Made by a program: the position numbers and the translations under genes
Origin: Lineus longissimus
Taxonomy: Eukaryota; Nemertea; Pilidiophora; Heteronemertea; Lineidae
NCBI RefSeq assembly: GCF_910592395.1
Contig: NC_088310.1
Span: 8,873,501 to 8,937,500, forward strand
DNA length: 64,000 nt
Direction: 5' to 3'
Notes under the pieces: generated by a model
The model's database searches: none
What the model saw: the letters and a program-made list of their open reading frames with translations, nothing else
Told to the model about the DNA's origin: nothing
In this document: positions 1,353-59,490 of the stretch, one piece after another
Layout of the letters: each line of letters opens with the position of its first letter
Position numbering within the stretch: the first letter of the stretch is position 1

Positions 1353-1607
1353 GAGACTAATATAGCGCTAAATCCAACATCGTGTTGGGCCTTGTTTGCA
1401 GAGGCATGTTTACTCTTGTTGCCAGTGTGGACGGGTCGAAAAACATGTGAAAACATCAGCAAACTTGTTGGCCAATGTTAGGCCATGCACCTTCTGAAAA
1501 ACATGTTGGTTGGTGTTAGGCAATCAGCAGCCAATCAGGGAACAGATTTGGCTCATGTGATGGAGCTACTTGGACAAAATGGCAGCCTCAATGAAAGACA
1601 GAGAGTG

Positions 1608-3052: not shown

Positions 3053-3057
3053 AGTGG

Positions 3058-3458
3058 GAGACAAGACCACTAATGAATATTCATAAAGTACATATTTGGA
3101 GAGGTATTGAAAAAATATTTGCTGTGGCAAGTGTACAGATATAAAGAAATTATTTGATGAAAAAATTAATTTCGAATTTTGCTAATTGGGTAATAGTTTT
3201 GAGTTTTTTGTGTTTTGAGTTTTTTCTGCCAGTTAGCTGAAAAGAGTGGAAATATCAAAGTTTGTCTAATTTGTCGATTATCAAAAAATTTCCGTGGTCA
3301 ACTACCAATTTTTTTTTTTCACCATTTACTTGCCCGACTGTCCGGAATATCATGTCAAAATTTCAGATTCACAACCCCACGCAGATTTGATGCGTCGCGG
3401 TCAAACATTGACAATTTAACTGCTAAAAGGCTTAAAAAATCATTTGTGGTCTTGTCTC
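3058..3458 (-). mobile_element. MITE family 1, copy C (inverted, internally shortened)
   Basis: About 401 bp with the same termini but in opposite orientation to copies A and B, so B and C face each other across five bases and could form a long hairpin. It lacks roughly 40-50 bp of the interior and carries several substitutions, which suggests it is an older or separately inserted copy. A 90-codon open frame inside it is an artefact of the repeat. Confidence 0.75.
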
Positions 3459-13587: not shown

Positions 13588-16500
13588 ATGAGAATGGCGT
13601 CACCAAAGTCAACCTCAGATTCTTTGCATCAGAAGCTGGAGGAGTCGGGCTTGGACATCAAATACTGGTCCAAAGTCTTGAAGTCTGACCTCGAAATAAC
13701 GAAACTGCAGCAAGTTTGTCATCTTGATGCTAGTGAAATTGACATCCTCTCAAAGAGCAAGCGACACAACTGGGAAATTGGTGCACTGAAACAGCTTGTC
13801 CATTCGATTAAGCCTGGTGAGAATATCACGAATAAGCACCAGAGGGCTGAGTTACTTGTCAATCAATTGAAAGACCTGAACGATACTATCGGGGTTCGAT
13901 CAGACAATCTCATTAAGAATCAAGTAGACAGACTTTGTCTCGAATTAGAAGTCCCACCTGCTGAATGGTTGAAACAGTATGATTCTGAGACAATTAGCGA
14001 TGTGGTAACTAGCATGACTGTTGATCTAGCAAAGCTTGAACCACGATTGGTAAATGTGACTGTCGAAGCAAGCAGTGATCAGGTTTTGAACAATGCAAGT
14101 GATGGCTTGGCCCTGCGTGGTGTTCTACTGACTGATGATCTAAAGGAACGCATGGAAACTCGTGCGAAGGTTCTATCTGCACCCCCCTCTATCGAATTAC
14201 ATCCCCCTAAGTTGACTGAACGTACACTCCAGAGAGAGCTTTCCTCAAAACGTCAATGTGAAGAATACAAAGATATGCTGCAAACCCTGGGATACAACAT
14301 TGCATCAAAGCAGGGAACTGACACGAAAAATGTTGTTCCGGAGAATCATGGCAGAGACAATCTTTATTATTCAAGGACTTGTAGTGTCGTGGTTCCAACT
14401 GCATTGATAGATTTAAATGGGACCTCTTCATTGAGGCTGTCACCAAATGCTCTCGAAGAACTGCAGATCATTGACAAGCTGCTGACTACAGGCGGCGGCG
14501 AAGGCTTGGTAAAAAGTAAGTGTAAAGACTTTCTGAAAAAGTACGGTTCACATGTAAATATTGGAAACATTCATTTTGGTGGTGTCTATACATACACTGT
14601 TGCATATTCTGGCTGTGGTTCCTTAGGCCCATCGCAGCAGTCAATGGTAGACATGGTAAGTGATATTCTGAGTGCAGTTGTATCAGCCAGCTATACTACA
14701 TTGCTCCCTCTTTTAAAAGCTGATGGGTCTCTCAATTTCGAAAAGCTACGACAGCTCGGTCTTCTTTCAAATTCGTATGACTCGTCATTGCTGTTAAAAA
14801 CCAGTGTACATATCACGAGAACAGGTGGCATGGAAACGATTGCATCTGTTCCACTTTGGAAGGCAAGTCTGCAGCTTGGTAATGATATGTGTTCAGTTGT
14901 TGATAGAGGCTCTTCCTTCTCTGTTGATTTCTGTAGTATTTGGGACTTGCTCCACTACCACCAAGGAGATGTTGATGATGCTGGCAAACTGGCCGACAAA
15001 TTGCTCTGTGAATGGCAGAATCTCGGTGGGGAAATTTCCCCTGTCCCAACCACACCTACTACTAGTGACGAAAATCAATTGGTCGCCTTCGATGAGCTAA
15101 AGAAAGTGGTGGAGAAAATTGAGGACTGGGTCAAAGATCCAGAGTTGCTTCACAGTGTCATGGATTATTTGGAACAGCTTCAAAAGGCTGTTCATCGCAC
15201 AAAGAGCAAAACCCAATGGCAAAATATTCTTAGTAAGGTTCCTGTTGTTTCAGCGTTCTTTTACAAAATAATGAATCTAGAACTGGGCAGTAGCATCATT
15301 CACCATACAAAGATGATCATTGAAGACATGGCAATAGATTGGGCGGGGGCGGTAGACTTTGATTGCAAGGACGATATCAGAAGGTGGATTGCTGTGACAC
15401 CTCAACTAAATATCGACCGTTTGAAAGACTTTACGGCCAGAAATGTTGAAGGTCTGCTTAGCTTTATAGTTGAAACTTTATTGCCTTGTTTTGAAGCTGG
15501 TAGGGCAAATTCAGAAACAGTGACAAAAGATCTTGCTATCTGCATCAGTAAAGTAAGTAATTGCTTGAAAAGTAATGAAGAATTTCATCAGCACTCGTTC
15601 CTTATCACAATGTTACATTGGTTATCCTATGACAAGAAACTGATGTGCTTCGAGCAGAACCTGACCTACAATCAGATTAAATCATTCTCCGTTGTGTTAC
15701 AGCAACAACAGAAAAGGTATGAGGAATATGCAGCTGCTGGACAAATTCAGTTGGAGGCATATCTGCTATGGCTTGTTCTTGATACTGATAAAACTTGCCA
15801 TAGTACCGTCATGCCAATGGAGGTTGAAAACAAGCTCCATCAGGCTATCGAAGACTTTAAGGCTGTAATGACAAAAGATGTTAAAAATGTGACTGATCAG
15901 TACGTCGACACAAAGAATTGGGAAGGCTTTGAAAAAACGCTTACTACGTTTATGTGTCATGGAAAAAAAGCACTTGAAACTGAACCGTTAGTTCTTCCGA
16001 TAAGCCCATCACGTGAAGACGGCCCTGTTCAAGAAACCACTCCAGTTCAAACGAAGGAGCTTCGACTGGAGCAGGCCGATGCTCCATGTGAAAAACTACT
16101 GACGCAATTACATTTAGGCCACATGTACCCTCGCAAAATCACATTGAGGCACATCATTGCCATCAAGAAAGATCGCAATGAAAAACACAAATTAGATCTT
16201 GCAGATATACCGTGGGTAATTCTGCAGAGGATACTAATGATCGATTACAATGGTAGAAATACAGCGTGGGAGAGAAGGTTGGTCGATTGCAGTGACGCTC
16301 ATGACAATACTGATTCCGGTGATTTTCTAGAAAACCTTCTGGCGGGAATTGATAACTGCTCATCCAGTATCAATATCCCCAACCCAATGGACATCTTCAT
16401 CGCAACATTCAGTTGTTGTGATCTCATGCTACGTCAGGTGATCTTGGAGAAAATGAATATGTGTCGGCTGGCTGTTCCCCTTGTCATGCCCGATTTGTCT

Positions 16501-19500
16501 GAACCAGATCTGACATTGTGTTTCTGGGCTCTGAGGAGTGTTGTGGTGGAGTGTTTCGAAGTTGGACATGCCGTTGAGCGTTCTTTGGTTGAGTGTCAGA
16601 TGAAAATTGCTTCCTTTGTCAGACTTGGGGAATCATCACTCTCAAAGTCACAGCTCCTGAATGATATACTCAATGAGCAGAGTCATCATACTTTCTTCAG
16701 CAAACAATGTAGCAGTTTAGGGAATTCTGATAGATATGTATCTAATGGCTTGATTGAAGCGGCTTGGTATCTTCCAAGTGATCGAGATTGCAACGTATTT
16801 GATGATGTTACCATGTTTCTGAACCTTCGAGGCGATGCATTCAATTACTCAAGACAAACAAGACTGGTCGGTTTTATATCATCAGTTATAACGATAATTG
16901 TTGATATCAAAACACTTGCAGACGATTGCACTGTTGATGCCATCAGATCGTTTCAGCAAAATCAGGCTGGCATAATCATTGTCCTGATTGGTTCTGCTAA
17001 CACCGATGCCGTCAAGTCACTGATCGCAACCTTTCGAGAAAAATTTGGTACTGAGAACCTCTTAGCCTTGAAAGTAGTAAACGCAATGAAGAGCGGAAGG
17101 GATAAAACACTGATTGAGATCAGACACGAAGTCCGTGACAATATATGTTTGTTCCTTAAAGAAAGACCAAAAACGACATTCGAACATCTCAGACTGAAAG
17201 CATTAGAAGAACAAATCTGTGTAGACGAAAATGACGAAGTGTGTCAACAGGGTAAAGGATTTGCTGATAAAGTGGTAAACCACATCAAAGACATGTCGAT
17301 TGCAAGAGTTAAGAATGAGATGCTGCCAATACAGAAAGATCATTGGCCCGAGTGGAGCAGGTTACTGAAAGCTAAAAATCGCACAACTGGCAAGGAACGA
17401 AAGACAACATCTGTCCAGGAGAGCGATAGGTTTATTCAACAAATGGCATCAGTAAGAGAGGAACAGTTGAAAAAGTGCAAGACACTGTCACCAATGATGC
17501 AAGCATTTTCCTCAACGCTTGGTGAACTGATTGATACACCAAACAAAATGATGTTCTTCCTTCAATGGCTGAAGCTGTACTTTGATAAGCGATCACGAGA
17601 AAATTTGCCGAGTCTCAGACAAGAATACAACAAGCTATGGGCCCAATCAAAGGTAGCCAAAAGCAAGCCACCAGAAGATCCGACCTCTCTCAAGGATTTG
17701 GAAGAAGGAGTACAAAGTGCTGAGCTTCGTTTGGCTGAGGCGTCATGCGGCCTTGAACACCTTCTCCGAGAAGTTGGACAGCTTTACGAGGCCAGCAAGG
17801 AGAGCAATGTCCCCTTAGCTCAAAATACTCAGAGGGTGATAGATCAGCTCCCGATGATAGCTGCTAAACTGATTCTTCTTGGCCATCCAATAGAGTTAAT
17901 GGACGGAGATGCTGCAAACGTCCCTCAGACATGGGTTCAGGCAATATTAAAATGTCTTGCCTCCCTAACAGGAGACAAACGCGTGTTCGTGTTGTCAGTC
18001 CTTGGTATCCAAAGTTCAGGCAAATCAACTCTAATGAACACCATGTTTGGTCTCAGATTTGCAGTGAGTGCGGGTAGATGTACAAGAGGGATGTACGTGC
18101 AGCTTGTAGAAGTGGACAGGTCGGAGACAGGTTTGCCTTTTGACTATATCATGGTTGTGGACACGGAAGGTCTCAGGGCCCCTGAACTCTGTCACGATAA
18201 ACACGAGCATGACAATGAACTGGCGACCCTCGTGATTGGGCTAGGGGATGTCGTCATTTTGAACATCAAGGGGGAAAATGTGGCAGAAATGAAAGATGTC
18301 CTCCAGATTGCTGTGCATGCATTCCTGCGCATGAAAATTGTACAACTGCGGCAGACATGTGTGTTTATACACCAAAATGTCTCGGCAGCAAATGCAAACG
18401 AAAAGATGATGCACGGTAGACAAGCACTGTTGGACAAACTGGATGAAATGACAGAACAGGCTGCAGAACAAGAAGAGATGAAAGATATTCACACCTTCAG
18501 TCAAATCATTGATCTCGACCTGGAGAAATGCGTTTGGTATTTTTCGGATCTCTGGCGCGGTGACCCACCCATGGCTCCTATCAATCCTGGATACAGCGAA
18601 AGAGTGCAGAGTGTGAAGAAATGCTTGTTGTATAAGATTGCAAATGCGCAGCAGCAGAAGTGCCTTTCTATGACAAACCTGACGACTCGAATACAAGATC
18701 TTTGGCAGGGAATTCTTGCAGATGATTTTGTTTTCAGTTTTAGGAACAGCTTGGCAGTCAAGGCATACAGTGGGCTTGAGGACAAGTACCATGAAGTTGC
18801 ATGGGTCATCGAACGGAGTATCATGAAGTGGTCTTCAGAAACAGCACCAATCAAACTTGAACGGTGTGAAACAGAAGGTGCTCTTGAAACTACAGCAGGA
18901 GATTTACTCAACGAACTTAAGTCTAAAGTAGCCGACATCTTGAAGGTTGGAACCACGGAATTGGAGCAGTACTTTGAACAGAATTCCCTGCAGGACATTA
19001 TAATTCAATGGAAAGAGGAGAAGATGCACTCTTACCGTTGCTTGGCAGACGCCCTTGATACTCGAACACGCAAGGATATAATTCAAAAAAAGGAAGTTCT
19101 GAAGTTTGAACTGCGTAACACAACAAAACAGGAGGACCTTGATCAGAGAATCGTGTCGAAGGCATCCGAATTGGCAGAAAAGCTGAGAGGGCAACGTCTT
19201 CCTGAAAATGAGTTGCAGTCGAAGTTTGACTCAATGTGGGTAGGATGGGTGACGGAACTGGCACCGCCTCCAGAAAGGCATGACACTCCAGTTGCAGTAG
19301 AAGTAGAGCATGTTTTGTATAAGTGGCTAGACAGATACCGAGTTGATGTGAGAAAGGAATTAAAGCTGCATCCCCTCAGTTCTCCCTTTAAAGGGTCATC
19401 CCTCTTTGGAACATTCAGAATGGAAAGTGGTGACATTCGCCAAGTCAAGTGTCTTGCGGACAAAGTTAGATATGCCCTTTTCGATGCTGGTAGGGGAGAT

Positions 19501-20958
19501 GAAGCCTTTCGCAAGCAGGTAATTGACTTTACTGAGAAAATCTTTGAAAAAATGGAGCTTTATTTCAAAGACCTATTGTCAATGGACTCTAAATTTCAGC
19601 CTTTCTATGCTGCAGAAGTTGTGAAGACTGTGACGGAGCACGTTGAGTGTCACAATAAGCATGATTCCCAATCACGACGATTCACCTTCTTACCAAAATA
19701 CACAGTCCGGTTGACAGTGCATGTTTGTCGTCGAGCAGTTCAGGTGTTCTCGGAGTTGAGGGAGACGTATGAGAGCAAACACAGTCCAGCAGGAAAGCTT
19801 GAAATCATGAGGAATGCAGCATTCAACGTCTTTAAAAACAAGGTATTCAACAGTACCAATGAACGAGTGGCAGCCGACTTGTTTTGTGATCGTCTGGCAG
19901 AATTGATAAAGCGGAGAGTCAGTGAGAAAATGCCCATGATGGTATTTGAAGAGGTGTGCAATGACTTTTCGCAGAAGAAGTACCATCTCATCATTGCAGT
20001 TCTGGAAGATCTTGCTGATCGTGATATCTTTGACGAATGGGCAGAGTTTCTGGCAGACTCAAAGACCTACACGTTCAAATGGATGACGGCGGCAATCAAC
20101 AAGAAGTGTTTAAGTTCTAACTTAGAACAAGGCGGAAGCTATTATAGCTTTGCAAGTTCTTGCCTCAGTACCGTTCTCAGCGGCGTACTAAAATGTGTCC
20201 GTATGGCATCTGAGCATGTCCACCAGTACTCACTCCAAAATCCCTATTCAGCAGCAACTATTATCAATGAGTGGATGCGGATTTTTTGTGATCAGGCAGA
20301 GACCCATCTTGCTGTAAGAGAGGGACAGATAAAATATATTGCAGAACAGGGGGTAACCGACTTTGAGAACTTTGAAAAGTTAGCGACCGAGCGCCTTAGA
20401 CAAGTTAAAGAAGAAATGCTTTGTAGCTATCGAGAGATGAACACCATTGTATGGGAAGGATCTACACCTTCTCAAATGGTTATGGACAAACTGTGGGGAT
20501 GTAGCGCCCATTGCCCTTTCTGCAAAGCACCGTGCCAATGGACGGATTCCAGCCACTGTGAAGGCGCAAATAAGGTCAGTCACAGGTGTATCCAACACCG
20601 TCCGGAAGGCCTCGGAGGTTACAGATGGACTAATGGTGACCGCGCCGGACGCTTGACTGTTGAGTCGTGCAACTATTTAGTTCAGATGACAGGAGCTAGT
20701 TTTAGCTGTCGAAACGAGCCAAATACATGCACTGGAAACGTGGAGAATCACCCTTACACGAAATACAAAACATACTATCCACTGTGGGATATATCTCCAA
20801 GTGCGACCATGGAATCGTCAAAGTTTTGGATGTGGTTCATGGCTTCTCATCAAGAGCAGCTAAAAGACCACCATGAGGCCAAGTCACCAGATATACCAAA
20901 ATCGTGGTATCAAATCACAAAGGAGCAGGCCTTGAAGAGCCTGAGAGAATCCCTTTAA
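13588..20958 (+). CDS. Interferon-induced very large GTPase (GVIN/VLIG)-like protein
   Basis: A single 7.37-kb open exon encodes 2456 residues. It belongs to the GVIN/VLIG/URGCP family: giant cytosolic or nuclear GTPases that are interferon-induced in vertebrates and expanded in many invertebrates. The exact biochemical role here is unknown. Visible parts are: a helical, death-fold-like N terminus (about 10-75); a MACPF-reminiscent segment at 315-334 (KYGSH, then GNIHFGGVY), also present in vertebrate family members; a long helical region; and the G domain with P-loop GIQSSGKST (1473-1481), a CTRG switch segment, DTEG (1525-1528) and the family-typical HQNV. The C-terminal tail carries a CPFC (2309-2312) plus Cys/His cluster, probably zinc-binding. 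An in-frame stop directly precedes the ATG, so the start is secure. A second Met is at codon 3. No frameshift or premature stop was seen, and key nucleotide-binding residues are present. Confidence 0.93.
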   Translation: MRMASPKSTSDSLHQKLEESGLDIKYWSKVLKSDLEITKLQQVCHLDASEIDILSKSKRHNWEIGALKQLVHSIKPGENITNKHQRAELLVNQLKDLNDTIGVRSDNLIKNQVDRLCLELEVPPAEWLKQYDSETISDVVTSMTVDLAKLEPRLVNVTVEASSDQVLNNASDGLALRGVLLTDDLKERMETRAKVLSAPPSIELHPPKLTERTLQRELSSKRQCEEYKDMLQTLGYNIASKQGTDTKNVVPENHGRDNLYYSRTCSVVVPTALIDLNGTSSLRLSPNALEELQIIDKLLTTGGGEGLVKSKCKDFLKKYGSHVNIGNIHFGGVYTYTVAYSGCGSLGPSQQSMVDMVSDILSAVVSASYTTLLPLLKADGSLNFEKLRQLGLLSNSYDSSLLLKTSVHITRTGGMETIASVPLWKASLQLGNDMCSVVDRGSSFSVDFCSIWDLLHYHQGDVDDAGKLADKLLCEWQNLGGEISPVPTTPTTSDENQLVAFDELKKVVEKIEDWVKDPELLHSVMDYLEQLQKAVHRTKSKTQWQNILSKVPVVSAFFYKIMNLELGSSIIHHTKMIIEDMAIDWAGAVDFDCKDDIRRWIAVTPQLNIDRLKDFTARNVEGLLSFIVETLLPCFEAGRANSETVTKDLAICISKVSNCLKSNEEFHQHSFLITMLHWLSYDKKLMCFEQNLTYNQIKSFSVVLQQQQKRYEEYAAAGQIQLEAYLLWLVLDTDKTCHSTVMPMEVENKLHQAIEDFKAVMTKDVKNVTDQYVDTKNWEGFEKTLTTFMCHGKKALETEPLVLPISPSREDGPVQETTPVQTKELRLEQADAPCEKLLTQLHLGHMYPRKITLRHIIAIKKDRNEKHKLDLADIPWVILQRILMIDYNGRNTAWERRLVDCSDAHDNTDSGDFLENLLAGIDNCSSSINIPNPMDIFIATFSCCDLMLRQVILEKMNMCRLAVPLVMPDLSEPDLTLCFWALRSVVVECFEVGHAVERSLVECQMKIASFVRLGESSLSKSQLLNDILNEQSHHTFFSKQCSSLGNSDRYVSNGLIEAAWYLPSDRDCNVFDDVTMFLNLRGDAFNYSRQTRLVGFISSVITIIVDIKTLADDCTVDAIRSFQQNQAGIIIVLIGSANTDAVKSLIATFREKFGTENLLALKVVNAMKSGRDKTLIEIRHEVRDNICLFLKERPKTTFEHLRLKALEEQICVDENDEVCQQGKGFADKVVNHIKDMSIARVKNEMLPIQKDHWPEWSRLLKAKNRTTGKERKTTSVQESDRFIQQMASVREEQLKKCKTLSPMMQAFSSTLGELIDTPNKMMFFLQWLKLYFDKRSRENLPSLRQEYNKLWAQSKVAKSKPPEDPTSLKDLEEGVQSAELRLAEASCGLEHLLREVGQLYEASKESNVPLAQNTQRVIDQLPMIAAKLILLGHPIELMDGDAANVPQTWVQAILKCLASLTGDKRVFVLSVLGIQSSGKSTLMNTMFGLRFAVSAGRCTRGMYVQLVEVDRSETGLPFDYIMVVDTEGLRAPELCHDKHEHDNELATLVIGLGDVVILNIKGENVAEMKDVLQIAVHAFLRMKIVQLRQTCVFIHQNVSAANANEKMMHGRQALLDKLDEMTEQAAEQEEMKDIHTFSQIIDLDLEKCVWYFSDLWRGDPPMAPINPGYSERVQSVKKCLLYKIANAQQQKCLSMTNLTTRIQDLWQGILADDFVFSFRNSLAVKAYSGLEDKYHEVAWVIERSIMKWSSETAPIKLERCETEGALETTAGDLLNELKSKVADILKVGTTELEQYFEQNSLQDIIIQWKEEKMHSYRCLADALDTRTRKDIIQKKEVLKFELRNTTKQEDLDQRIVSKASELAEKLRGQRLPENELQSKFDSMWVGWVTELAPPPERHDTPVAVEVEHVLYKWLDRYRVDVRKELKLHPLSSPFKGSSLFGTFRMESGDIRQVKCLADKVRYALFDAGRGDEAFRKQVIDFTEKIFEKMELYFKDLLSMDSKFQPFYAAEVVKTVTEHVECHNKHDSQSRRFTFLPKYTVRLTVHVCRRAVQVFSELRETYESKHSPAGKLEIMRNAAFNVFKNKVFNSTNERVAADLFCDRLAELIKRRVSEKMPMMVFEEVCNDFSQKKYHLIIAVLEDLADRDIFDEWAEFLADSKTYTFKWMTAAINKKCLSSNLEQGGSYYSFASSCLSTVLSGVLKCVRMASEHVHQYSLQNPYSAATIINEWMRIFCDQAETHLAVREGQIKYIAEQGVTDFENFEKLATERLRQVKEEMLCSYREMNTIVWEGSTPSQMVMDKLWGCSAHCPFCKAPCQWTDSSHCEGANKVSHRCIQHRPEGLGGYRWTNGDRAGRLTVESCNYLVQMTGASFSCRNEPNTCTGNVENHPYTKYKTYYPLWDISPSATMESSKFWMWFMASHQEQLKDHHEAKSPDIPKSWYQITKEQALKSLRESL

Positions 20959-27473: not shown

Positions 27474-27913
27474 GGCTCACCGTAGGGGAATCTATACAAC
27501 AACGCTGTGTCCGACGTCCGTCGTCCATCGTCGTCGTCGTCTGTATCCTGTTTCAGAAACAATGGCACGTTTCTTAACCGCTAGGGCTATGAATTTAAAA
27601 AAACTAACCACCAAGGTCAGGTGACCACTGACAATAAAATTCGGTCCGATCTGATTCTTGACTTGGCAACCAGGAGGCCAGAAGTGGAAACCTAAAAAGT
27701 GTGATATCTCTCGTATGAGTGACTCGTTTTCCTAGCAAGGATACATCACATATCCTACGGGTTTTTGATTTGACCTAATTTTCAAGGTCACAGACGTGAA
27801 ATGGTGTAAATTGATGGTTTGAGTGGTACTATGGCACGTTTCTTAACCGCTAAAATTCTTAACCACCAAATATCTATACGGTGAGCACAATGGCCCTTGG
27901 CCGTTTCATTTAG
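27474..27913 (+). mobile_element. Short copy of the GGCTCACCGTA element
   Basis: About 440 bp starting GGCTCACCGTAGGGGAATCT, followed by a CGTCGTC-rich stretch. It ends in TATCTATACGGTGAGC plus a tail CCTTGGCCGTTTCATTTAG, so GCTCACCGTA occurs at both ends in inverted orientation. Internal words (GGCACGTTTCTTAACCGCTA, 'CAAGGTCACAG') match the long copy at 34184-35888, which lies in the opposite orientation. This is a non-autonomous element with no coding capacity. Confidence 0.75.
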
Positions 27914-29502: not shown

Positions 29503-29989
29503 AATACTTGAAATCTATTGAAAACCACGCTCTTCCAACCAGTCAGTGCACATGTCCAAAAAGACCTTACAACATGTCTGGAATCTGCATCGTAAAACCC
29601 CCGGATAGGGATACTAATCGCGTGGGATTTCCTGTTTCAAAATGCGATCCTTATTCTTCTTGTACCAATCAAGGCGTCCCAATGTCACTCTGAAAGGCAA
29701 TGAAGAGGACAGAATTGAGAACAGCCATGTTTCTATTCTTTTCAAACTTTAAATAATTCTGCTTTGGCAGATCTATTGCATGCTGAGAAATGTTACAAAT
29801 AATCGAACCATGTCTTATGTTCTAGTCCATACAATAGAGGTTCTTCACTGACGTCACATGATGACGTTGCCAATATGTTTTGTACTGCCATATTGGCCGT
29901 CACATGTGGTCACGAGGTAAAGGAAATGCATCTGGCAGGTTGCCGTCAAAACGTCTCGTCGTGGCGTCACGTGAGGAATCTCTATAGGC

Positions 29990-30048
29990 ATCTCCTCCAT
30001 TTTTAATTTGTTTATTGTTTAAAAACAAATTAAAAATGGAGGAGATTC
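29990..30048. repeat. A1-specific hairpin
   Basis: TCTCCTCCATTTTTAATTTG is followed, after a short AT loop, by its exact complement. The A2 counterpart near 39581-39620 has only one arm, so the hairpin arose after or during the duplication. No function is assigned. Confidence 0.7.
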
Positions 30049-30571
30049 ATTGCGGGATTACTTCTGAATGTTACTCAATCATCGTATTTGGATCCACCTT
30101 GTCTAAAGAACCGACGAACTGGGGTATAAAGATTGCTGTGAAGAGGAAAATAACCTGGAAGAAAACATACATTTATATTAGGTTACTTCTATCAGAGTCT
30201 TTCAATATTAAACTTTTAAAGACTTGATTTTAAATTTCGATTTTTTTCAAAATAACTATTCGTCCTTGTTTATATTTACTTAAAGGTCATATATCAAGGT
30301 TTTTTGCCATTTTCTGCTGTAAGACGATTTCAAAAGTGTACCTAACACTTTATACAATACAGAAAACCAAATGCAATTAGCTCCATCCATTTTGAAGATA
30401 TAGCCAATTATGTGTTTGACAACTTGATTACCTGATCAGGCTAGCAACTGGCTTGTTAGAGCCAGGCGGCGGGTTCAGCAAAAGTTGTGATGTAGATCAT
30501 GTCATGCAATCATAAAAGCAGGAGGGCCTTAATTAGTTATGCACACCTGGAAGTAATGTGTTTCATTCACT

Positions 30572-31529
30572 ATGGTGTATTGTGTGGCTCCGAATTGTGT
30601 CAAGGCTAGCACAAAGAACAATCGAATGACGGATGGGACCCATTTTCATGAATTTCCAAAGCCAGTTGAACGAGAGAGGAGGAAGCTGTGGATTTGGAAG
30701 TGCAAACGTTTGGAGTGTTGGAAGCCTGGGCCTTCGGCCAAACTTTGCAGTGATCACTTTATCGATACGGATTATCACATGAAGCCGGATATCTGCATCC
30801 AACTGAATATTAAATGCCACTTGTTAAAAACAGCTGTTCCATCTGTATTCGATTTGACCAACCCCACTTACATGCGACAGCCTCCAAAGGAAAGTTCGTT
30901 AGCCAAAAAACGTAAACATCAAGAAGTGAGTTGAACACTATTTCATGATTTATACACTGCTGATGCACACAACACTCATACTACCCAAATGGCACATGTC
31001 ATCCACTGTACAGTGGCTACACAACCATGTCAATTGCATTTAATGCCCGAGGCTGCTGAGGTCGGTTGTTATACATAATGTGTTCACAGAGAGACTAACA
31101 CTGTTCTTCTATTTTGGCATCAGTCAATTTTGAGATGGTCCCTTTAGAGAGGTTCCACTTGACTGTGAACACCATTTCCATTTCCAGAGGTATTTCATGG
31201 AGATGATCTTGTGTCACCAAAAACAAACAGGACATCCTATAAATACAAAATATTTATTGTTCAAAAAAAATCAAAATATTCGTTCCTTTTCAGAATACAT
31301 TGAACTTCTACTGAATGAGGTATTGAGACTTCGAGAGAAAATGCCCTCGTACAGCACTGCATTGGCCAATAGAGAAGATCGCATCAAGTCTACCCCCAAG
31401 CCAGTCTGTACGAAATACACGAAACGTCAAACCAAACTTGAGGTCGTGGATAGCCGGAAGACTCGATTTAATCGGACGCTCAACTCTTTGGATAACGAAA
31501 GCCAGTGTACTCCTCTGAGGGCCAGGTAG
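30572..31529 (+). CDS. THAP domain protein (two exons)
   Basis: Exon 1 is 30572-30925 (donor GTGAGT) and exon 2 is 31188-31529 (acceptor TTTCCAG). Phase 0 on both sides gives 231 residues. Residues 1-85 form a THAP zinc-dependent DNA-binding domain: C4 and C9, then C59 and H62 (CSDH) complete the C2CH set, with the typical LWIWKCKR segment and a closing AVPSVF box. Downstream, exon 2 has a helical, coiled-coil-like EYIELLLNEVLRLREK and a basic tail. There is no recognisable nuclease domain. It lies inside the TTAA-flanked element and ends 50 bp past the start of the opposing gene's 3' end (tail-to-tail overlap). Exon 1 is secure. The exon 2 join is inferred from phase and consensus only. Confidence 0.8.
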
Positions 31530-32530
31530 AGCGAATCTTGTCACGAGCACAGACTGGAAGAGGAAGTCTTTGCTTTTTGCCCAAACGTTGCCAGCACCAG
31601 CGCACAAATCTGCGGTATGCAAGGTATCTCCATAACCTGAAAAGACAGTTTGAAAGAAAATTTGAGTTCAGATGAAACATAATGCATACAATGTAGTATG
31701 GTCATGAATCATTTGTGCTGAAAGCAGTTGTTTCTGTTTTGTAAATAAATAGGAAGTGTACATGTACAAGTTTCTGTTATTTTACTTATTTCAACTTACT
31801 TGTGCATTGGCTGATCATTTCCTATTGGCCCTTGATCTTGGATAAATTCATACATGGCACTTTCCAGGACATATCGGTCAAGGCAGTTGCTTGCGAATCC
31901 GGGATGCAGAGTTATGCAGGCAACTCCATCTGGCTCATAACTTTCCTTCTTGGCCAGAACTGGGGAATAGTCACTGCAGCACATCGACTCTGTTCCAGTG
32001 ATTTGAGCTGTGCAGTTTCCACAGTCACACCTGAAGTGATAAACGTTTACATATTTACAAAAAATGATGATTAACACTAGACCAGTTGCCAGTTGCCCTC
32101 CTTGGCTTCCCTCAGTCTCAGTGATGGATGATGAGGCCGAGTCCATGACATGGCAGATGGCAAATGTCCTTCAGAGACTGTTCAAATACATACAACCATT
32201 GAACCAATACAAAGCCATCCAAGAAGTGCCAGAGCATCAGATAAAGTCCAATTGTGTAAAGTAGTAGTGGATGCATGTCATGATGTAGTGCTGTGTGCAT
32301 AGAGAACAGAGTGAGAATGTAAACAAAACTTGCCATTTTCTGTTGCCTGCACGTTCAGGGCGTTCATCCTCCACTTCCTCATCACTTTCGTCCGAATGAT
32401 CACTCTCATTATGATCTAGTGATATCAATGGCTCGAACATGTATGGCTCAACGTTTAAATATCCTTCTGTATCGACCAAAACATCCTCAAATTCACTGCT
32501 CTCACTCTCTGAACTGTATGCGGAAGCCAT
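31480..32530 (-). CDS. Stand-alone P2X7 ballast (P2RX7 intracellular) domain protein, three exons
   Basis: Exons are 32530-32334, 32030-31800 and 31636-31480; phases 2 and 2 match and give 194 residues. Residues 1-60 are an acidic Ser/Glu/Asp-rich leader with a PYMFEP motif. From W66 the protein follows the cytoplasmic ballast domain of P2X7 receptors: WCDCGNC (66-72), ESMCC, then GVACITLHPGF, and WRYLAYRRFVRWCW with CARDKIR and EEYTGFR at the C terminus. Vertebrate ballast domains bind zinc and guanine nucleotides; the Cys framework is present here. There is no transmembrane P2X channel part, so it is not a receptor. The first intron appears to be GC-AG (donor GCAAGT), the only join giving the family's W-C order. 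It lies inside the TTAA element, convergent with the THAP gene. Confidence 0.85.
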
Positions 32531-33379
32531 CTTGCTTTGTTCTGACTGACACGACCTACGTCATCAAAAAATCCCTAGCGGCCACATGTGGAACTAATCT
32601 AAAGTTGTGTGTGGTGGGAAATTCAAATAGTTTCAAATTGAAAATTGAAATAACTAAATAATGACTTTATTATTAGAATTTTTTTAATGTCTGGGATCTT
32701 GTTTTTTTAACCCTCAACATATTTCATGAGTATCAAGCATGTTTTCAAACCTTGATATATGACCTTTAAATCAGTTATTACGATTAGTCGTATCAACCAT
32801 CTCAAAGTGCAAGGATACCCCTATCTTCAATAGACATGTACTATGCCATTCACATACTTAATTTATTACTGACTGACTGAAAATCTTGAAATCTCCTTAA
32901 AATGGATATGTGAATCATAAATTTCTAAAAAAAAGATTTCTGGGGAAAAAAGATTCGCCACGCGGTCTTACCAAAACGGCCGGCTCGATCAGTATGTTGT
33001 ATTTCTCTACCAGCTGATCAGTGACGGGACTAATGTCCCCGTTTAGTTTCTTCAGCTCTTCGAGATATGTCCTCACGAACGTCCTATTGTATTCAGGCAA
33101 GTGTTTCTTGAGGTCAACGTCACCCTCCATTATTGCCTGAAGTAAAACGGAACTTATCCGTCTCGAACTCGGAAAGGCAAGGTTACTAGTGCACAAAACT
33201 AACCAGTAGCCAACTCGCTTGCCTGTCATGAAGGGCATCCGTTGACTCTGAGATGCGGCTGAGCATATTATATCGGTCTGTATGACAGCAGATCCGACAA
33301 CAGATTGTAAATTTTGTTTTCAACTTAGTTGAAAGCTGAGTGTCAACTGGGACATTATTAGCTCTATAAATGATGTTGG

Positions 33380-33556
33380 GTGATTTGTACTGTAAAGTAG
33401 GAAGAAACCAGAGGAACCCTACGCTGTCGAAGAGAGTCGTCTTCTCCAGCTCTCACATCAGGACCAACCGGCAATCGAACCGGCTGAGATCTCGGAGTTG
33501 GCAGGCGCCGACGTTTCCATTGCGTTACTCAAGCCAATATCAAGTGTGTTATCATA
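33380..33556 (-). mobile_element. Candidate tRNA-derived SINE (shared by both duplication copies)
   Basis: On the minus strand, TGGCTTGAGT resembles a Pol III A box, and GGTTCGATTGCC about 50 bp later resembles a B box. It is followed by a tail shared with 40702-40879. Because both duplicates carry it at the same place, it predates the duplication. The box matches are imperfect, so this is a suggestion only. Confidence 0.35.
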
Positions 33557-34183
33557 GAGCCTATAGGTCTATCTAGACGATATATACGGGAAATAATCGG
33601 GGAAGGGGGACTAGACCTACTTTCACATCGGGAATATAGTTGTAGCGGCATTGATATCTTTAGTCTTTAATCATGCAGTGGCTCGTTTCATCCAACCTTA
33701 GATTAACGGAAGACAACAGGAACAAGCTTGATTTCTTTTCCCATCTATTCACCACGTAATAAACTGAAAGATACAATAATTGAACAACAACTAAGTACAT
33801 ATTCACAATAATTGAACAACAACTAAGTACAGATTCGTAACAACAAAGAGACAATCATGGAAGACAATAGTACATCCATCAGGAGGACTGAAAAACATGT
33901 TACAACACTGTCCTCAAGGAGGTAGAGACACCTGACGATTGAATATCGAACTAAAATATTCATAAAATGGACTGAGATTATGCTACTAAAGTCCCCATTG
34001 TTGCCCCAAAACTTGATGTTAACTACAAACAAAATTATTAAGATGAAGAGCTCCAATACCGAGCTACCACACAGAGACGATAGATTGAACACATCACGAT
34101 ATAATCAAGTACTAGCCATGTTGAGATGTCCGAAGTGGTGTAACGAAAGAAATGTCACCGGGAATATTAAATCTATACTTGAT

Positions 34184-35760
34184 CTAAATGAAACGGCCAG
34201 GGGCCATTGTGCTCACCGTATAGATATTTGGTGCTTTGTAATTCATCCAGATTAAGAAACATTGTACATGTATAGTATATAGGTCAAACCAAAGTCGGTA
34301 TGACATGTGATGTATCGTTGCTTGGAGTAAGTACCATAAGAATATCATCAAAAACAAGTCAATAATAAACGAGATATTGCACTTTTTACCTATTTTAGTT
34401 TTGGCCTCCTGGTGGCCGAGTTGAGTACCAGATCAGATCGAAATTCGGTGTCCGAGGTTACATGACGTAGGGAGTCATGTGTATCAAATTTCAAGTTCAA
34501 AGCTTTAGTGGTTAAGAAACGTGCCATAGTTACAATCAAACGACAAATTTACGCCATTTGACCTCTGTGACCTTGAAAAGCAGGTCAGATCAAAAACTCA
34601 TATGATATGTGATGTTTCCTTGCTAGGAGAACCTACCATAAAAATGTTATTGAAAACGAATCACTAAAAATAAGCAAGATATTGCACTTCTTACTTTTTC
34701 CATTATGGCCCCCTGGTGGCCGAATAAAGAATCAGATCGAGCCAAAATTTGGCATCAGAGGTTATCTGATGTAGGGGGTTATATGCACCAAGTTTCAAGT
34801 TCATAGCTTTACTGGTTAAGAAACGTGCCATAGTTTACACTCTAACGGCCAATTTACGCCATATGACCTCTGTGACCTTGAAAAGTAGGTCAAATTGAAA
34901 ACCCGTAAGATATGTGATGTATTCTTCCTAAGGGTACCTACCATAAAAATTTTATCGAAAACAAGTCACTTATAAGCGAGATATCACACTTTTTAGATTT
35001 CCACTTTTGGCCCCCTGGTGGCAAAGTTAAGAATCAGATCAAACTGAAATTCAGCACCAGAGGCTATGTGATATAGGGGGTTATATGTACCAAGTTTCAA
35101 GTTCATAGCTTTAGTGGTTAAGAAACGTGCCATAGTTTACACTCTAACGGCCAATTTACGCCATATGACCTCTGTGACCTTGAAAAGTAGGTCAAATTGA
35201 AAACCCGTAAGATATGTGATGTATTTTTCCTAAGGGTACCTACCATAAAAATTTTATCGAAAACAAGTCACTTATAAGCGAGATATCACACTTTTTAGAT
35301 ATCCACATTTGGCCCCCTGGTGGCAAAGTTGAGAATCAGATCAAACTGAAATTCAGCACCAGAGGCTATGTGATATAGGGGGTTATATGTACCAAGTTTC
35401 AAGTTCATAGCTTTAGTGGTTAAGAAACGTGCCATAGTTTACACTCGAACGGCCAATTTACGCCATATGACCTCTGTGACCTTGAAAAGTAGGTCAAATT
35501 AAAAACCCGTATGATATAAGATGTATATTTGCTATGAGTACCTACAACAAAAGTTTCATCGAAAACAAGTCACTAATAAGCGAGATATCACACTTTTTAG
35601 ATATCCACATTTGGCCCCCTGGTGGCCAAGTAGAGAATCAGATCGGAGAGAAATTTAGTGTCACGGGTCATCTGACCTAGGGGGTCATGTGTACAAAGTT
35701 TTAAGTTCATAGGCCTAGCGGTTAAGAAACGTGCCACTGTTTTTGAACTAGGATACGACG

Positions 35761-38762: not shown

Positions 38763-39645
38763 TTCTGCACCCCTGACAGCAAAGGGCTGCCTGCTCAATT
38801 CCTTAACTACAGACATGCATTGGCCTATTATGCGGTGTCTTTTTGAAGTCAAGGTTTGAAAATTACGTTTCCATTGCAAAGATTGAAAATAATCATGGAC
38901 TACGTACTACTTCTAAAAAGACAAAGCCGTGATCATATTTTGTGTTTTAAATTTTTGTATTCAATAAATTGGCACTGAAGAAAATGTTTCTTTTTTAGTT
39001 TCTACATTTTTCTCTTGATTGCAGTTATTGTATAATAAAATCAAAAGAGCCATACTTAAACTATGGGTCAAAATTGTTTGAACTTTTCAGGACCCCTCCC
39101 TCTACCCTGTAATTCTTGAAATCTATTAAAAACACACTCTTCCAACCAGCCAGTACGCAATTGACATTGAACGTGTCTTGAAGATGGCATCGTAAGACTC
39201 GTGGATAGGGGGACTAATCCCGTGGGATTTCCTGTTTCAAAATGCGATCCTTATTCTTCTTGTACCAATCAAGGCGTCCCAATGTCACTCTGAAAAGTAA
39301 TGAAAACCGATTGACGTGGAAAACAGAATTGAGAACGGCCATGTTTCTATTACTGCTTTGACCGATCTATTGCATGCTGAGAAATGTTACAAATAATCGA
39401 ACCATGTCTAATGTTCTAGTCCATACAATAGAGGTTCTTCACTGACGTCACATGATGACGTTGCCAATTGTTTTGCAATGTCATATTGGCCGTCACATGT
39501 GATCTCGAGGTAAAGGAAATGCATTGGCAGGTTGCCGTCAAAACGTCTCGTCGTGGCGTCACGTGAGGAATCTCTATAGGCAAGTTCATATGAGCCTAAA
39601 CAAATTAAAAATGGAGGGGATTCATTGCGGGATTACTTCTGAATC

Positions 39646-42600
39646 TTACTCAATCATCGTTTTTGGATCCACCTTGTCTGAAGAACCGACGAACTGGGGT
39701 ATAAAGATTGCTGTGAAGAGGAAAAAAACCTGGAAGAAAACATACATTTATATTTGGTTAATTCTATCAGAGTCTTTCAATATTAAACTTTTAAAGACTT
39801 GATTTTAAATTTCGATTTTTTTTTACCAAATAAATATTCGTCCTTGTTTATATTTGTGACCCGCTCTACCAAAACTAGGCGCTTGTCGCATCTGAACTTG
39901 ACAGGTTGATACGGACTTGTTGTTCATTTCCCTATTGTAGACCTTTTGTGAAATGTGACCAAATCAGTTTGTAATAGATTTCACAAAAGGTCTACAATAG
40001 GGAAATGAACAACAAGTCCGTATCAACCTGTCAAGTTCAGATGCGACAAGCGCCTAGTTTTGGTAGAGCGAGTCACATTTGCTTTAATCAGTCATTACGA
40101 TTAGTCGTATTAACCATCTCAAAGTGCAAGGATACCCCTATCTTCAATAGACATGTACTATACCATTCATATACTTAATTTATTACTGACCGACTGAAAA
40201 TCTTGAAATCTTCTTAAAATGGATATGCGAGTCATAAATTTCTAAAAAAGATTTCTGGGGAAAAAAGATTCGCGACGCGGTCTTACCAAAATGGACCGCT
40301 CGATCAGTATGTTGTATTTCTCTACCAGCTGATCAGTGACGGGACTATTGTCCCCGTTTAGTTTCTTCAGCTCTTCGAGATATGTCCTCGCGAACGTCCT
40401 TACGTATTCAGGCGAGTGTTTCTTGAGGTCAACGTCACCATCCTTTATTGCTGGAAGTAAAACGGAACTTATCCGTCTCGAACTCGGAAAGGCAAGGTTA
40501 CTAGTGCACAAAACTAACCAGTAGCCAACTCACTTGCCTGTCATGAAGGGCGAAAGACATCCGTTGACTCTGAGATGCGGCTGAGCATATCATATCGGTC
40601 TGTATGACAGCAGATCCGACAACAGATTGTAAATTTTGTTTTCAACTTAGTTGAAAGCTGAGTGTCAACTAGGACATTATTAACTCTATAAATGATGTTG
40701 GGTGATTTGTACTGTAAAGTAGGAAGAAACCAGAGGAACCCTACGCTGTCGAAGAGAGTCGTCTTCTCCAGCTCTCACATCAGGACCGACCGGCAATCGA
40801 ACCGGCTGAGATCTCGGAGGTGGCAGGCGCCGACGTTTCCATTGCGTCACTCAAGCCAATATCAAGTGTGTTATCATAGAGCCTATAGGTCTATCTAGAC
40901 TATAATTACGGGAAATAATCTGGGAAGGGGGACTTGACCTTCTTTCACATCGGGAATATAGTACTCTTATTGGTGAGGTGAACTTGGAATCATAAAACAT
41001 TTGTCGTGATTAACAAAAAATGGGGTGGGACTTACAAAGTGCGGACATACAGATATAAGTCCCCAGGTCTCTTATCGGCGAGCCCAATCCAGACATCTCG
41101 TAGTCAATCAGCACCGTTCTACCTGCGATTAGACAAGAAGTGTTCGTGCAAAAAAAGAAGAAGGATTTAGCACGCTCCATTCTCGGTCATGGTATGCTCG
41201 ACTGGACGATTGACAAAAGCCTATCGCCTGACAGTATCATGAGGATGAGTATTGAAAAAGTACATCGTGACCCTCAATTCAGCTTCCAGACGATGGGCGG
41301 AGGCTACGGAGGCAATAAGCCTACCGCTGAAAGTTCAGTATGAAATAACACATGGATTTAAAACATTGATGCGAGGTCCTGGTAACATTGCTTCTGCAGC
41401 TACATCGGACATTTTAGAGAACACAATCTAAGCCTAAATTCGATACTCAATTACAAATACAAGGCGGTCCTAGTGCTTTCAAAATTTCCCACCTTGGTCC
41501 TCCTGGTATATGAAATTGGTCGCATTTGGATCGTTGTGACAGAGCGTGTCTTTTATTCCCTCAAAACCACCCTGCACGTCACCCGCGAATAATGCCGTTT
41601 CCCTCCTGAATTCATCAGCGGTGTACATGTCTTTGTAGAATCTGAAATAACAAATATTTGTATAACATGTATATGTGCCTCTTCCTCTGCCAGCCTGTAA
41701 GTACCTGTGACTAATTTGAATCTAGCGGTCAACTACATGTAATTCGAATTAGAGCGGTTGCATAATTTCTGATTTATAGCCCATGCAGTCTTCCAGTGGT
41801 GAGAGTCTTTTTTGTTCCCGCGCCAAAATGTAACTGCAGGCTTTGAATCGGCATCACGACTGAACCAAAATTTTAGATTTTCTATTCGGTCGGAACTTTT
41901 TTCCGTACTTGCCTGACTGAACTACTAGTAAGATTGTGCTTGCAATGAGAGGATAAGGTTTTACTCACTTCTCGTGTAGTTCAGGATTCGCAATCGGAAT
42001 CGGCCAAGCTTCCAGCATCAGGCCGATCATTTCATTCGCATCCATCCCTTTACCTATATTGTACTTGCTCGACATCTTCAGCGTAGCGTCGCAGTGAATC
42101 TTGGCGAACTCCTTTGCTACAAGTCTGCAATATTCAAAATTACTTCCTAAAGGAATGGTGCCTGTCAACAAATTGCCCGTAAACGTCAATTTCATGTCAC
42201 CGTGAAGAATCAACCAAGTTTAAAATGTTTGAAACAAACATTACCAAAATCTTCCTCAATGGAATGAGACTCCTTGGGCAGTACATCCGTCATACTAAAC
42301 AATGTTTTTTTAGAAAAGGGACGTGACGGATCAACTGCGAGAGATTCTGATGTTAAACTTACTTTCCCACCTTGATGTCACGGAATGCTGAAATATCTTC
42401 CCAAGTGAAAAATGACCCGCTAACATAGGCAGAGCAGATACCATTTTTAAAGGTACAGTATACTTCGGGTCCAATTCCAAGTTCTGCAAAGCATTTGGTG
42501 CATCCGAACTCGTTCTCTCTCGACATCGTCACGCCTGCAAAGTTGGTCGCGAATATTCGGGCGACTACTGCTGTCTCGTCCACCTCTTCGCTCACGTAAC

Positions 42601-43425
42601 AGGTCAGCATAAGATTGATCATACCCTGCGCCAGAGGCTGAAAGAGCAACCTTAATTGATGTATACTTACTGCCTTTGAAATCTGCAAAATGTTACCCGA
42701 TGTAGCACTTATAGATGTTTCCCTTGTCAATCTGACCATACCATATTCATATAAAGCAGGTACATATTCAAAGCATGTTGAAGCATATTCTCTCTGCCAA
42801 TACAAGCTTTCATGTTTTATTTGTCAATTTATATCATCATTTGTGCCGAGTAATAGCTAGGGAGTCAAATCTTTCGCCTGTGTCTCATGTATAATGGTTT
42901 AGGAAGCAGAATGTTAGAATATAAACTCTTTTTTTAAATATCAAAGAAGAAGAAAAAACAGCAATTAGATTTATTCCTACAGAAAATATATACACTTTGC
43001 TCAATTTTACCCAGTCCCAGCTTAATTTTCCTTGAATCAAATCGTGAATGGATCCAGATGCTAGGTCGGGCGAGGCTCAGTTGTCAGCAGGGATATTCTA
43101 ATATTCTTTTACTTAATAAGTGGCAGAACTGATTTTATCATGTGTTCAAAAGAATAGCAGCCATCGGAAGACAGCCGTTAGCCTCATAGCCAATCGATCG
43201 ATGGTTTTTCTGGCACGATCACGCACTAGGTCTATATACTACTACATGGCAAAGACCATGCAGAACTGTGTTTGGGCTTACCTTAAATCTGACGGCATCC
43301 TTTTTCCATTTCGGTCTGATGACGGCCAGGATTTCCAAGAGAGCATCTTTGTAGTCCTGAGAGTCAACCTCGACATCTACATGAGGGGGTTGCTTCAGAG
43401 GGGACGAGTCTGCTGAGGATGTCAT
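39646..43425 (-). CDS. Divergent ethanolamine/choline kinase-like protein, seven exons
   Basis: Exons (minus) are 43425-43282, 42637-42363, 42124-41969, 41641-41493, 41122-41036, 40450-40287 and 39729-39646. All have GT-AG junctions and matching phases (0,2,2,1,1,0), giving 352 residues, the usual family length. Such kinases phosphorylate ethanolamine or choline in the cytosol, the first step of the CDP-ethanolamine/choline pathway. Exon 1 has LLEILAVIRPKWKKDAV, like the ETNK N terminus. The Brenner-type motif CHNDPNATN places H227, D229 and N234. IDYE (247-250) matches the metal-binding IDFE. HSPEYVRTFARTYLEE fits the C-lobe. Oddities are a degenerate early loop (GMINLM instead of GITNKL) and a C terminus lacking the usual SHxFWGLW. 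Substrate is uncertain. Exon 7 is the least certain, supported by phase and by conservation in the duplicate. Confidence 0.82.
39856..40076. mobile_element. Near-perfect 221-bp palindromic MITE in copy A2
   Basis: Arms of about 98 bp, starting GTGACCCGCTCTACC and ending GGTAGAGCGAGTCAC, are separated by about 22 bp and are almost identical. ATTT flanks both sides (39852-39855 and 40077-40080), and copy A1 lacks it. It is therefore an insertion after the duplication, with a 4-bp target duplication. It lies in intron 6 of the kinase-like gene. Transcribed, it would form a long hairpin RNA. Confidence 0.85.
40702..40879 (-). mobile_element. Candidate tRNA-derived SINE, second copy
   Basis: Counterpart of 33380-33556 with the same A-box-like TGGCTTGAGT and B-box-like GGTTCGATTGCC on the minus strand, in intron 5 of the kinase-like gene. 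The B box ends in G where C is usual. Confidence 0.35.
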
Positions 43426-56425: not shown

Positions 56426-57831
56426 ATGACACCTTCCTGCCTCAAGGCTGGCACGCTTGTGGTGCTTATCATTGCCGGAGTTCTGGTCGGTCTAGTGTGG
56501 TGGAAGCCATCTTGTCCTTCCCATACCCTCCTCACAACTGGGCGAGGTAAAACACTCATTGCACTCGCACGAATTAATCCAAGGCAATTAAGCTTACTTT
56601 TGTTTTTTACAATTATTGTGGTATACTTCTCAAATATGATCGCTGAGATCATTGTTAGCACTACCGACACAAATCTGTATTCATCTGTTGTATTTCGTGT
56701 TCGCCGACCCATCTTGACTCGTCCACAGATATATCATCATCATCTGGAGGGAAGGGAGTCTGTTGCATCGTATATCCCTTTAAAAATGTGTGGGCATTTT
56801 TGAAACAAACCTTGAAAGTATATAAATTTGCAATTATATAGCTTTACCCTCCCGAACATCCAGATCAAGTTTCGTTCCAGAATTTTCTCATGAAACTTGT
56901 TTGTCTTTCTCCCGCAGAGCGATTGCCGCACACCAAGCTGGCGACCAAACTCAAATATCCACGTGTCTTCCCAGTTCTGAGGTGCACCGCGCAACAGCGA
57001 CGTACGGACCATGATGGAATCTGTGACTTCTTAAGAGATTATCGCTTGCAGGAAAGTAATCGGCAAGCGCTTCTAGAACTGTTAGACTACTTTATGAAGC
57101 TAGCAACGAAGCATGGATGGAAGTACTATCTCAGTGAAGGGTCTTTGCTTGGCTCCTGGCGACACCATGGGATGATCCCATATGATATTGACATAGATCT
57201 GTATGTAGACATCCGCCATCGGGACGAGATCACTGCAGCCATTGATAAAGAAAACGACTACAAGCTCAAGACAGATGCGCGTGGTATTGCCCATGTTTAT
57301 TCCGAATCGAAAGCAGCCCAACATGTTCTGAAAGGAACGTCCGGCAGATGGAAATGGCCATTTATAGATCTGCTGTACTTCACAGATAATGGGACTCATG
57401 TTAATTCTCTCAGCTACCCGGACAGACAGAGACAGAAGACGGACGTGTTTCCTCTTCATAACAGACCGTTTGAAGCGTTTGACGTACCCTCGCCGCATGA
57501 CCCCGTTAAGTTCGTCATCTCCGAGTACATGTACGGCCATCCTAAGCTGTCCGACTGCCGCGCCATTGGAGGGGTATCTTACAAATGTGACCAACTGAAA
57601 AATGTCGTACCATTCGTTCATCGAGAATTTAAAAATGAACTCATGGTAGAAACATTAAAACTCGGCGATAAGGTCATTCAAGTGAAGGCTGTCAAAGAGG
57701 CTGAGTCCAATTTACCCAAGAGCCCGTATACTCTTGAGACTGTTAAGCCTAAAGAGGCTCCATTGTTCAAACCAGACATGATAGATGCAGCAATGACTAT
57801 ACGCATGCCTATTGTGAAAGGACAACTATAA
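56426..57831 (+). CDS. LicD/fukutin-type family protein, type II membrane, two exons
   Basis: Exon 1 is 56426-56546 (donor GTAAAA) and exon 2 is 56918-57831 (acceptor CTCCCGCAG), phase 1, giving 344 residues. The N terminus is short, then one hydrophobic segment (about residues 8-26, AGTLVVLIIAGVLVGLVWW), a signal-anchor for a Golgi-type luminal enzyme. The rest is a LicD-type nucleotidyltransferase fold: YYLSEGSLLGSWRHHGMIPY, followed by the acidic DIDID at 130-134 that should bind metal. Members such as fukutin, FKRP and bacterial LicD transfer phospho-ribitol or phosphocholine to glycans. The substrate here is unknown. The ATG at 56421 is out of frame and stops at once, so 56426 is preferred. 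Confidence 0.85.
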
Positions 57832-58424: not shown

Positions 58425-59465
58425 GGTTACTCTTCCAACATTCATCCTGGATACCGTGTATAAAGGGCACGAGCGAACTCACCTCCCACACGTTCTTTCA
58501 ATTTGACCTTTAACTTGGCGAACCTACTCACTTTGCTCTAACATCCATTCCCAGGGTTCGAGCGAATGGGTAGTGCCCAATATGGGGTCATCTGTGTGTA
58601 CCTGTAGTGCTGATGCGATGAACTACATGCACAACTAGGACTCCCTTCTCCGGCAAATGGATTTGTCTCTCTGGTGTTACGCCTAATCTTGGTTATGTAC
58701 GCGAAAGATGGCGGGCCGCAGTGTCGAAGTTGTTGTTCGCATTGCTATTGCGTTGATAGAAACACAGAAGGCAGATCGTTTCAAAGTCTTCGGCGTCCAC
58801 ATACGAAAAGGTCTTAGAAACAAGTTTGGCTGACTGCACAATTATCCTGACGGTACAAGCCGTATCATCCGTTTTTCTCCCTTGCTTACCGTTTCAATAG
58901 AATCTGTGTTTGGCAAGTTGCCGATTATGATCGAATACGATGTTTACGATGTGGCCTTGCGATTTTGTCGATGCCGTCTCCTATGTGACGTTAGTGTACC
59001 AACCAATCATAAGTCATGAAGGCACTCGTTTAGAACTCGTCAACTAAACACTTCCACCAACGCGTTTCTTGACTTCCATCTGTGATGAGTCTCAGAAACG
59101 GGCGATAATTGCACAGCGCGATTCGTTGATACTAAAAGTCTCAATGGCAAATCAATGCTAAATTTGGTCTTTTTCTTTAAGTTATATGAACCAATAGTTA
59201 CTTCGCGTGATCGGCAGTGTAATTCGAAACTGCCGAAATGACTGAGGAACACAAAAGCTGCCGCAAATAAGGATTTCAACGGTATCGATTAGTTGTTGGA
59301 TGTAAATGCATTATTTAACCCGTAGTATGTATATTTTATCGGTATATGGTCAATGGATACCGAGAACAAAATACTTCCTCTGTTTGAGGAACTAAATAAC
59401 CGGCCTCAGTGAGAGACAAACAAAACAAAGATTCTGTTGCTTCTCGTGCAGACGAAAACACATAC
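58425..59465. repeat. Tandem array unit 1 (receptor gene deleted)
   Basis: From 58430 the sequence matches 59460 onward and 62500 onward: TATA word, then TTCTTTCAATTTGACCTT, then ATGGATTTGTCTCTCTGGTG, and so on. At about 59347 the match jumps from the stretch equivalent to 60438 to the stretch equivalent to 62347. The part that would contain the receptor is missing. This unit is more diverged than units 2 and 3. Confidence 0.8.
58459..58464 (+). promoter_or_regulatory. Conserved TATAAA, unit 1
   Basis: GTATAAAGGGCACGAGC. The same position in units 2 (59485) and 3 (62518) also has TATAAA followed by a conserved TTCTTTCAATTTGACCTT about 50-60 bp on. Orientation is opposite to the receptor gene. 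Confidence 0.35.
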
Positions 59466-59484
59466 ATTCATCCCGGATACCGTA

Positions 59485-59490
59485 TATAAA
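59485..59490 (+). promoter_or_regulatory. Conserved TATAAA, unit 2
   Basis: CGTATATAAAGGGCACGAGC, in register with units 1 and 3. No transcript is known. Confidence 0.35.

Follow-up and report, generated by a model that had tools for sequence, protein, structure and literature searches.

The DNA examined here, which we call the window, is a stretch of 64,000 nucleotides from the nemertean Lineus longissimus (assembly GCF_910592395.1, contig NC_088310.1, positions 8,873,501 to 8,937,500, forward strand). A TTAA-flanked element of 2482 bp lies at 30284-32765. It carries a THAP-encoding exon and, on the opposite strand, a gene for a free-standing ballast-domain protein that is best read as KolX, and a paralogous segment without the element sits 7-10 kb downstream. 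The features on which the argument depends are these:

30280 to 30283, no strand: left TTAA target-site duplication
30284 to 30302, plus strand: left terminal inverted repeat (TIR), 19 bp, starting AGG in keeping with the 5'-RR rule of Kolobok
30572 to 30925, plus strand: exon 1 of the THAP frame, 118 aa, C2CH, with an AVPSVF box (PF05485, E 3.6e-12 on the spliced model)
31294 to 31479, plus strand: remnant with coding character in the EYIELLLNEVLRLREK frame, which we take for a transposase exon; by eye it resembles a coiled coil, and it ends at the KolX stop codon
31480 to 31636, minus strand: KolX exon 3, stop codon at 31480-31482
31800 to 32030, minus strand: KolX exon 2, with six of the seven zinc cysteines
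32334 to 32530, minus strand: KolX exon 1, with start codon, acidic N-terminus and a GC donor
32747 to 32765, minus strand: right TIR, 19 bp
32766 to 32769, no strand: right TTAA target-site duplication
39111 to 40962, plus strand: paralogous segment lacking the element and carrying a foldback insert of its own (85% in the left part, 95% in the right)

The ends of the element read AGG...CCT. The inverted repeat (30280-30302 against 32747-32769) is perfect over 23 nucleotides with the TTAA and over 19 without it; the 19-bp sequence is AGGTCATATATCAAGGTTT. Both the perfect 19-bp repeat and the TTAA duplication described in an earlier note on this DNA are borne out. A 20-mer made of TTAA and the start of the repeat occurs at exactly two sites in the window when up to three mismatches are allowed (0 of 100 shuffles), and no match longer than the 19-bp one exists among 21,617 TTAA-TTAA pairs spaced by 100-12,000 bp once an unrelated inverted repeat at 1631-3435 is set aside, the runner-up then being 8 bp. 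Together, the terminus count with its shuffles and the survey of TTAA pairs lead us to reject a chance TIR. Inward matches within the 1631-3435 repeat range from 12 to 30, where 30 is the upper limit of the scan; repeats, both direct (97%) and inverted (91%), cluster at 1606-3458, and several of the inverted matches there are bounded by TTAA. The terminus search found no further Kolobok copies within the 64-kb window, and tblastn of the window with THAP or KolX gave, outside the element, matches of E 0.34 or worse.

The left flank of the element (29503-30277) aligns to 39111-39855 at 85% and the right flank (32766-33640) to 40083-40962 at 95%. Where the element's flanks predict ACTTAAATC, the paralogue reads GCTTTAATC, so that one base of the TTAA differs. 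Six base pairs to the left of this target position ends a near-palindromic foldback insert of 221 bp (39856-40076; 204 of 221 positions self-complementary) that has ATTT on both sides. Because the target is altered and the foldback insert adjoins it, we regard the site as empty of the element but not pristine. The empty site near 40081 that the earlier note had described is real in that the paralogue lacks the element, but it is not letter-perfect.

The ballast-domain gene is intact, with three exons and 585 nt encoding 194 aa. Its first intron (32031-32333) is of the GC-AG type, with donor GCAAGT, and the residues of the Lineus protein P0001 are identical across the junction; the second is GT-AG. 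The product matches P2RX7_C (PF20478) with E 4.4e-13. All seven zinc cysteines of P2X7 are aligned in it (C67, C69, C72, C83, C84, C104 and C172), and the C-terminal GF.YP motif is common to it and the P2X7 ballast. These cysteines and this motif are the points of likeness to the P2X7 ballast and nanor-like proteins (PMC7016195), the comparison having been made with P2X7, from which the Lineus protein differs in that the P2X channel part is absent and the gene lies inside a transposon. Three of 37 candidates proved to be relatives. P0001 (uncharacterized protein LOC135499789 [Lineus longissimus]) is identical at 193 of 194 residues; with a single difference it is most simply a second copy of KolX, and it could also be an allele of the window's own copy. 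P0002 is a second Lineus relative (53% by BLASTP, 57% in the multiple alignment), and P0003 comes from Tegillarca granosa. A profile built from these three proteins retrieved four distinct P2X7 sequences from the PDB (E 5.3e-11 to 2e-10) and, apart from P2X7, nothing at E up to 1. A pattern search of viral contigs for relatives gave 50 matching stretches, none of which was confirmed. An AlphaFold model of P0001 from the three-row alignment was of low quality, with a mean pLDDT of 50 and no helix before residue 109, and was kept out of the evidence. From its sequence, the protein is best read as KolX, which is known from Kol0 Kolobok elements as their second protein besides the transposase (Kojima and Bao 2022, PMC9587614). 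According to the same paper KolX has the ballast fold, and the seven ballast cysteines hold two zinc ions.

The frame of the THAP exon is open and runs to a strong donor, GAA|GTGAGT. We tried 11 acceptors with this donor, scoring sites with consensus weights. The best-scoring acceptor, 31293, leads to NTLNFY and a stop after six codons, for a product of 124 aa; the second best, 31187, gives the longest product, 231 aa in a frame open to 31529, the last 16 or so codons of which are antisense to the coding end of KolX. The remaining nine yield 120-169 aa, and from a site list checked by eye no in-frame small exons could be fitted that would phase THAP exon 1 with 31294. Coding bias is seen downstream. 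By a home-made score, trained on three host open reading frames of the window and set against single-base shuffles, the EYIELLLNEV frame at about 31293-31479 reaches +0.186 bits/codon over 62 codons, a value as high being seen in 0 of 500 shuffles; THAP exon 1 and KolX score +0.104 and +0.113 bits/codon for comparison. The DNA at 31188-31293 is A+T-rich and coding-neutral, and the bias stops at the KolX stop codon, the score from 31482 on being -0.094, with only 15 codons to judge by. No Pfam family matches in the remnant (31137-31526), and the longest stop-to-stop frame within the element is 131 aa. The picture of two intact spliced genes converging within the element therefore holds for KolX; on the THAP side, the best acceptor brings an early stop.

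Versions of the THAP exon were found in two of 40 candidates: P0004 agrees with it at 113 of 118 residues (5 differences) and P0005 at 88 of 90, after which P0005 diverges. No full transposase with the element's THAP N-terminus was present among 265 candidates (about 354-1125 aa) at E<=0.01. That search needs shared five-residue words, so distant transposases would escape it, and with 0 of 265 no autonomous partner is known. Since a THAP domain is a usual part of Kolobok transposases (PMC6004289), the THAP frame is most likely the truncated N-terminus of such a transposase. The coding sequence of the remnant directly adjoins DNA that encodes KolX on the opposite strand, as a deletion junction would predict, and we infer an internal deletion with its junction, where the transposase remnant meets the KolX end, at about 31470-31490. 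If the THAP frame is a transposase remnant, KolX is the sole complete accessory protein. The suggestion that both proteins are cargo or machinery of the element would then stand for KolX, whereas the THAP frame is best taken as what is left of a transposase.

Kolobok elements duplicate their TTAA target and are told from piggyBac by ends of the form 5'-RR..YY-3' (PMC9587614), and their transposases usually have THAP, DDE and H2CH motifs (PMC6004289). The Lineus element has the 4-bp TTAA duplication and the termini AG...CT; it carries a THAP domain with an AVPTIF-type box (AVPSVF), the domain presumably belonging to a transposase, and a KolX whose sequence is of the ballast type, with the seven cysteines. 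We searched the element for a DDD/E catalytic core with H2CH/zinc finger and found none, so that it can be filed only as a non-autonomous derivative. We consider it very probable that this is a non-autonomous Kol0-type Kolobok of L. longissimus in which KolX is complete, the 5' part of the transposase has been kept, the catalytic DDE part has most likely been deleted, and mobilization would occur in trans. The ends, the THAP domain and the KolX sequence support what had been proposed of a mobile element with a TTAA target and Kolobok kinship; in the comparison with Kolobok and piggyBac that the earlier note had called for, ends and cysteines fit Kolobok, but the DDE core that would complete the likeness is missing.

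The TTAA target, the 5'-RR..YY-3' ends and the KolX/ballast protein are shared with the Kol0 group (Kolobok-1_XT type, PMC9587614), from which this copy differs in having no DDE domain; the THAP domain is as in Kolobok transposases generally (PMC6004289). Known Kol0 hosts include vertebrates, annelids, cnidarians and sponges, and another Kolobok lineage, KolobokP, has already been recorded in L. longissimus (PMC9587614). In Xenopus, XKol, with its THAP transposase, and the non-autonomous T2-MITE resemble the element in the TTAA target and AG/AGG ends, and the Kolobok transposases surveyed there exceed 600 aa (PMC6004289). The ten tabulated full-length Xenopus copies all have AG ends, and two of them have the left end AGGACATGTCAACCCC, not unlike AGGTCATATATCAAGG in the Lineus element; they measure 6.8-13.9 kb, however, as against 2.5 kb (PMC6004289). 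In the Lineus element both KolX and the transposase remnant are spliced, the two genes being convergent, and the KolX gene is kept; the name KolX does not occur in the main text of PMC6004289.

Other accounts of the locus deserve consideration. It is most improbable that we are looking at host genes of the ordinary kind, one for a THAP protein and one for a nanor-like ballast protein, enclosed by inverted repeats that arose by chance. Some ballast genes do show conserved linkage across animals (Rump et al. 2020, PMC7016195), which suits resident host genes better than transposons, but here the perfect TIR has TTAA on both sides, with a next best match of 8 outside one repeat, and the whole stretch is missing at the target position of the paralogue, where one TTAA base differs. 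Scarcely more credible is a piggyBac-type element that acquired THAP and ballast genes. Although such an element would also use TTAA, and a KolX-like protein is present in a few piggyBac families (PMC9587614), the ends expected of piggyBac, other than 5'-RR..YY-3', are not those found: the element's AG..CT is the stated difference from that superfamily, and the KolX-like proteins of piggyBac are without most of the seven cysteines (PMC9587614), all of which the Lineus protein has. Ends and cysteines together lead us to reject a piggyBac identity.

The remaining accounts concern the THAP frame. The element might be a stable two-gene unit of THAP and KolX that was never catalytic in this arrangement and spreads as a unit in trans. 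Both genes do lie between intact ends and the 265 candidates yielded no longer relative of the THAP protein, yet transposase-frame coding abuts DNA that codes for KolX on the other strand, as expected at a deletion junction, and Kolobok THAP domains are normally part of the transposase (PMC6004289); we think this unlikely. Somewhat better, if still doubtful, is the possibility that the element is regulatory, its truncated protein of THAP plus coil binding the ends of the family and repressing it while the element itself is moved in trans. Precedent comes from P elements, whose small non-autonomous copies often encode repressors such as KP, a protein of 207 aa (PMC7776569). The KP derivative is internally deleted with its THAP-coding 5' end kept, as in the Lineus element, which differs in belonging to another superfamily and in having a second gene aboard. 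The THAP exon has an open frame and varies little among its three versions, and the frame after it retains coding bias; the best-scoring acceptor, on the other hand, frameshifts to the 124-aa product, and only 31187 yields 231 aa with a coil-like part. A role of this kind would add to the explanation of the element as a non-autonomous Kol0-type Kolobok and is not its opposite.

P0004, one of the two carriers of the THAP exon, is the Lineus chromobox protein homolog 3-like isoform X2, a predicted isoform encoded outside the window. In it the THAP exon of the element family is followed by a complete HP1-type protein with chromo (2.1e-22) and chromo-shadow (5.5e-28) domains, and the shared part stops at the very residue of the splice donor of THAP exon 1. 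This looks like a transposon exon captured by an HP1 gene. Among the papers listed by a literature search, no title or start of an abstract described a THAP-HP1 fusion.

If the element is a non-autonomous Kol0-type Kolobok, its history might be as follows. An internal deletion would have removed the catalytic DDE part and brought what remained of the transposase gene up against the KolX end; with no catalytic domain in the element, mobilization in trans is the natural inference, a full-length relative supplying the transposase. That enzyme would bind the 19-bp ends, presumably via its own THAP domain, and cut at TTAA, so that the element would pass from one TTAA site to another. Any truncated THAP protein that is produced could repress transposition much as KP does, and KolX may persist because it is helpful to the shared reaction. 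We can also imagine, as an improbable extension, that the host has turned the family on itself, P0004 binding Kolobok ends and covering them with heterochromatin, with THAP-plus-KolX derivatives persisting as trans-mobilized regulators; KolX would then be under selection for its action on the shared transposition reaction. Retention of KolX in an element without a catalytic domain makes the role of this protein open to testing.

Free-standing ballast proteins had already been described by Rump et al. (2020, PMC7016195), including the Ixodes scapularis protein XP_029850348, whose two ends are formed by a THAP (printed TAHP) and a ballast domain; the string "nemerte" occurs 0 times in the main text of that survey. 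P2X7 has been proposed to have arisen by fusion with KolX, and nanor likewise to be KolX-derived (PMC9587614), the only paper found in the open PMC library to make the Kolobok-P2X7 link. The idea that a mobile element was the route by which the ballast domain reached P2X7 agrees with that proposal and, having been published in 2022, is not new. The Lineus element is accordingly no discovery but a good fresh example: a compact nemertean case of a transposon with an intact stand-alone ballast gene, which supports the published derivation of the P2X7 ballast domain from KolX. What is new is this Kolobok family and copy, and the predicted THAP-HP1/chromobox protein of Lineus.

Several other features of the window may be recorded. 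A single open frame of 2456 aa at 13588-20958 has the domains of a URGCP-type giant GTPase (3.4e-128). Tandem repeats of about 300 bp occupy 34280-35742, with a relative on the other strand at 27519-27854, and a frame matching choline/ethanolamine kinase (6.2e-11) lies beyond the paralogous segment at 42359-42823. A LicD-family reading frame is found at 56842-57831 (7.7e-10). In the region 59348-64000 a 1.6-kb stretch is present twice (92%), at 59348-60959 and 62347-64000, with a rhodopsin-type GPCR reading frame between the copies at 61039-62070.
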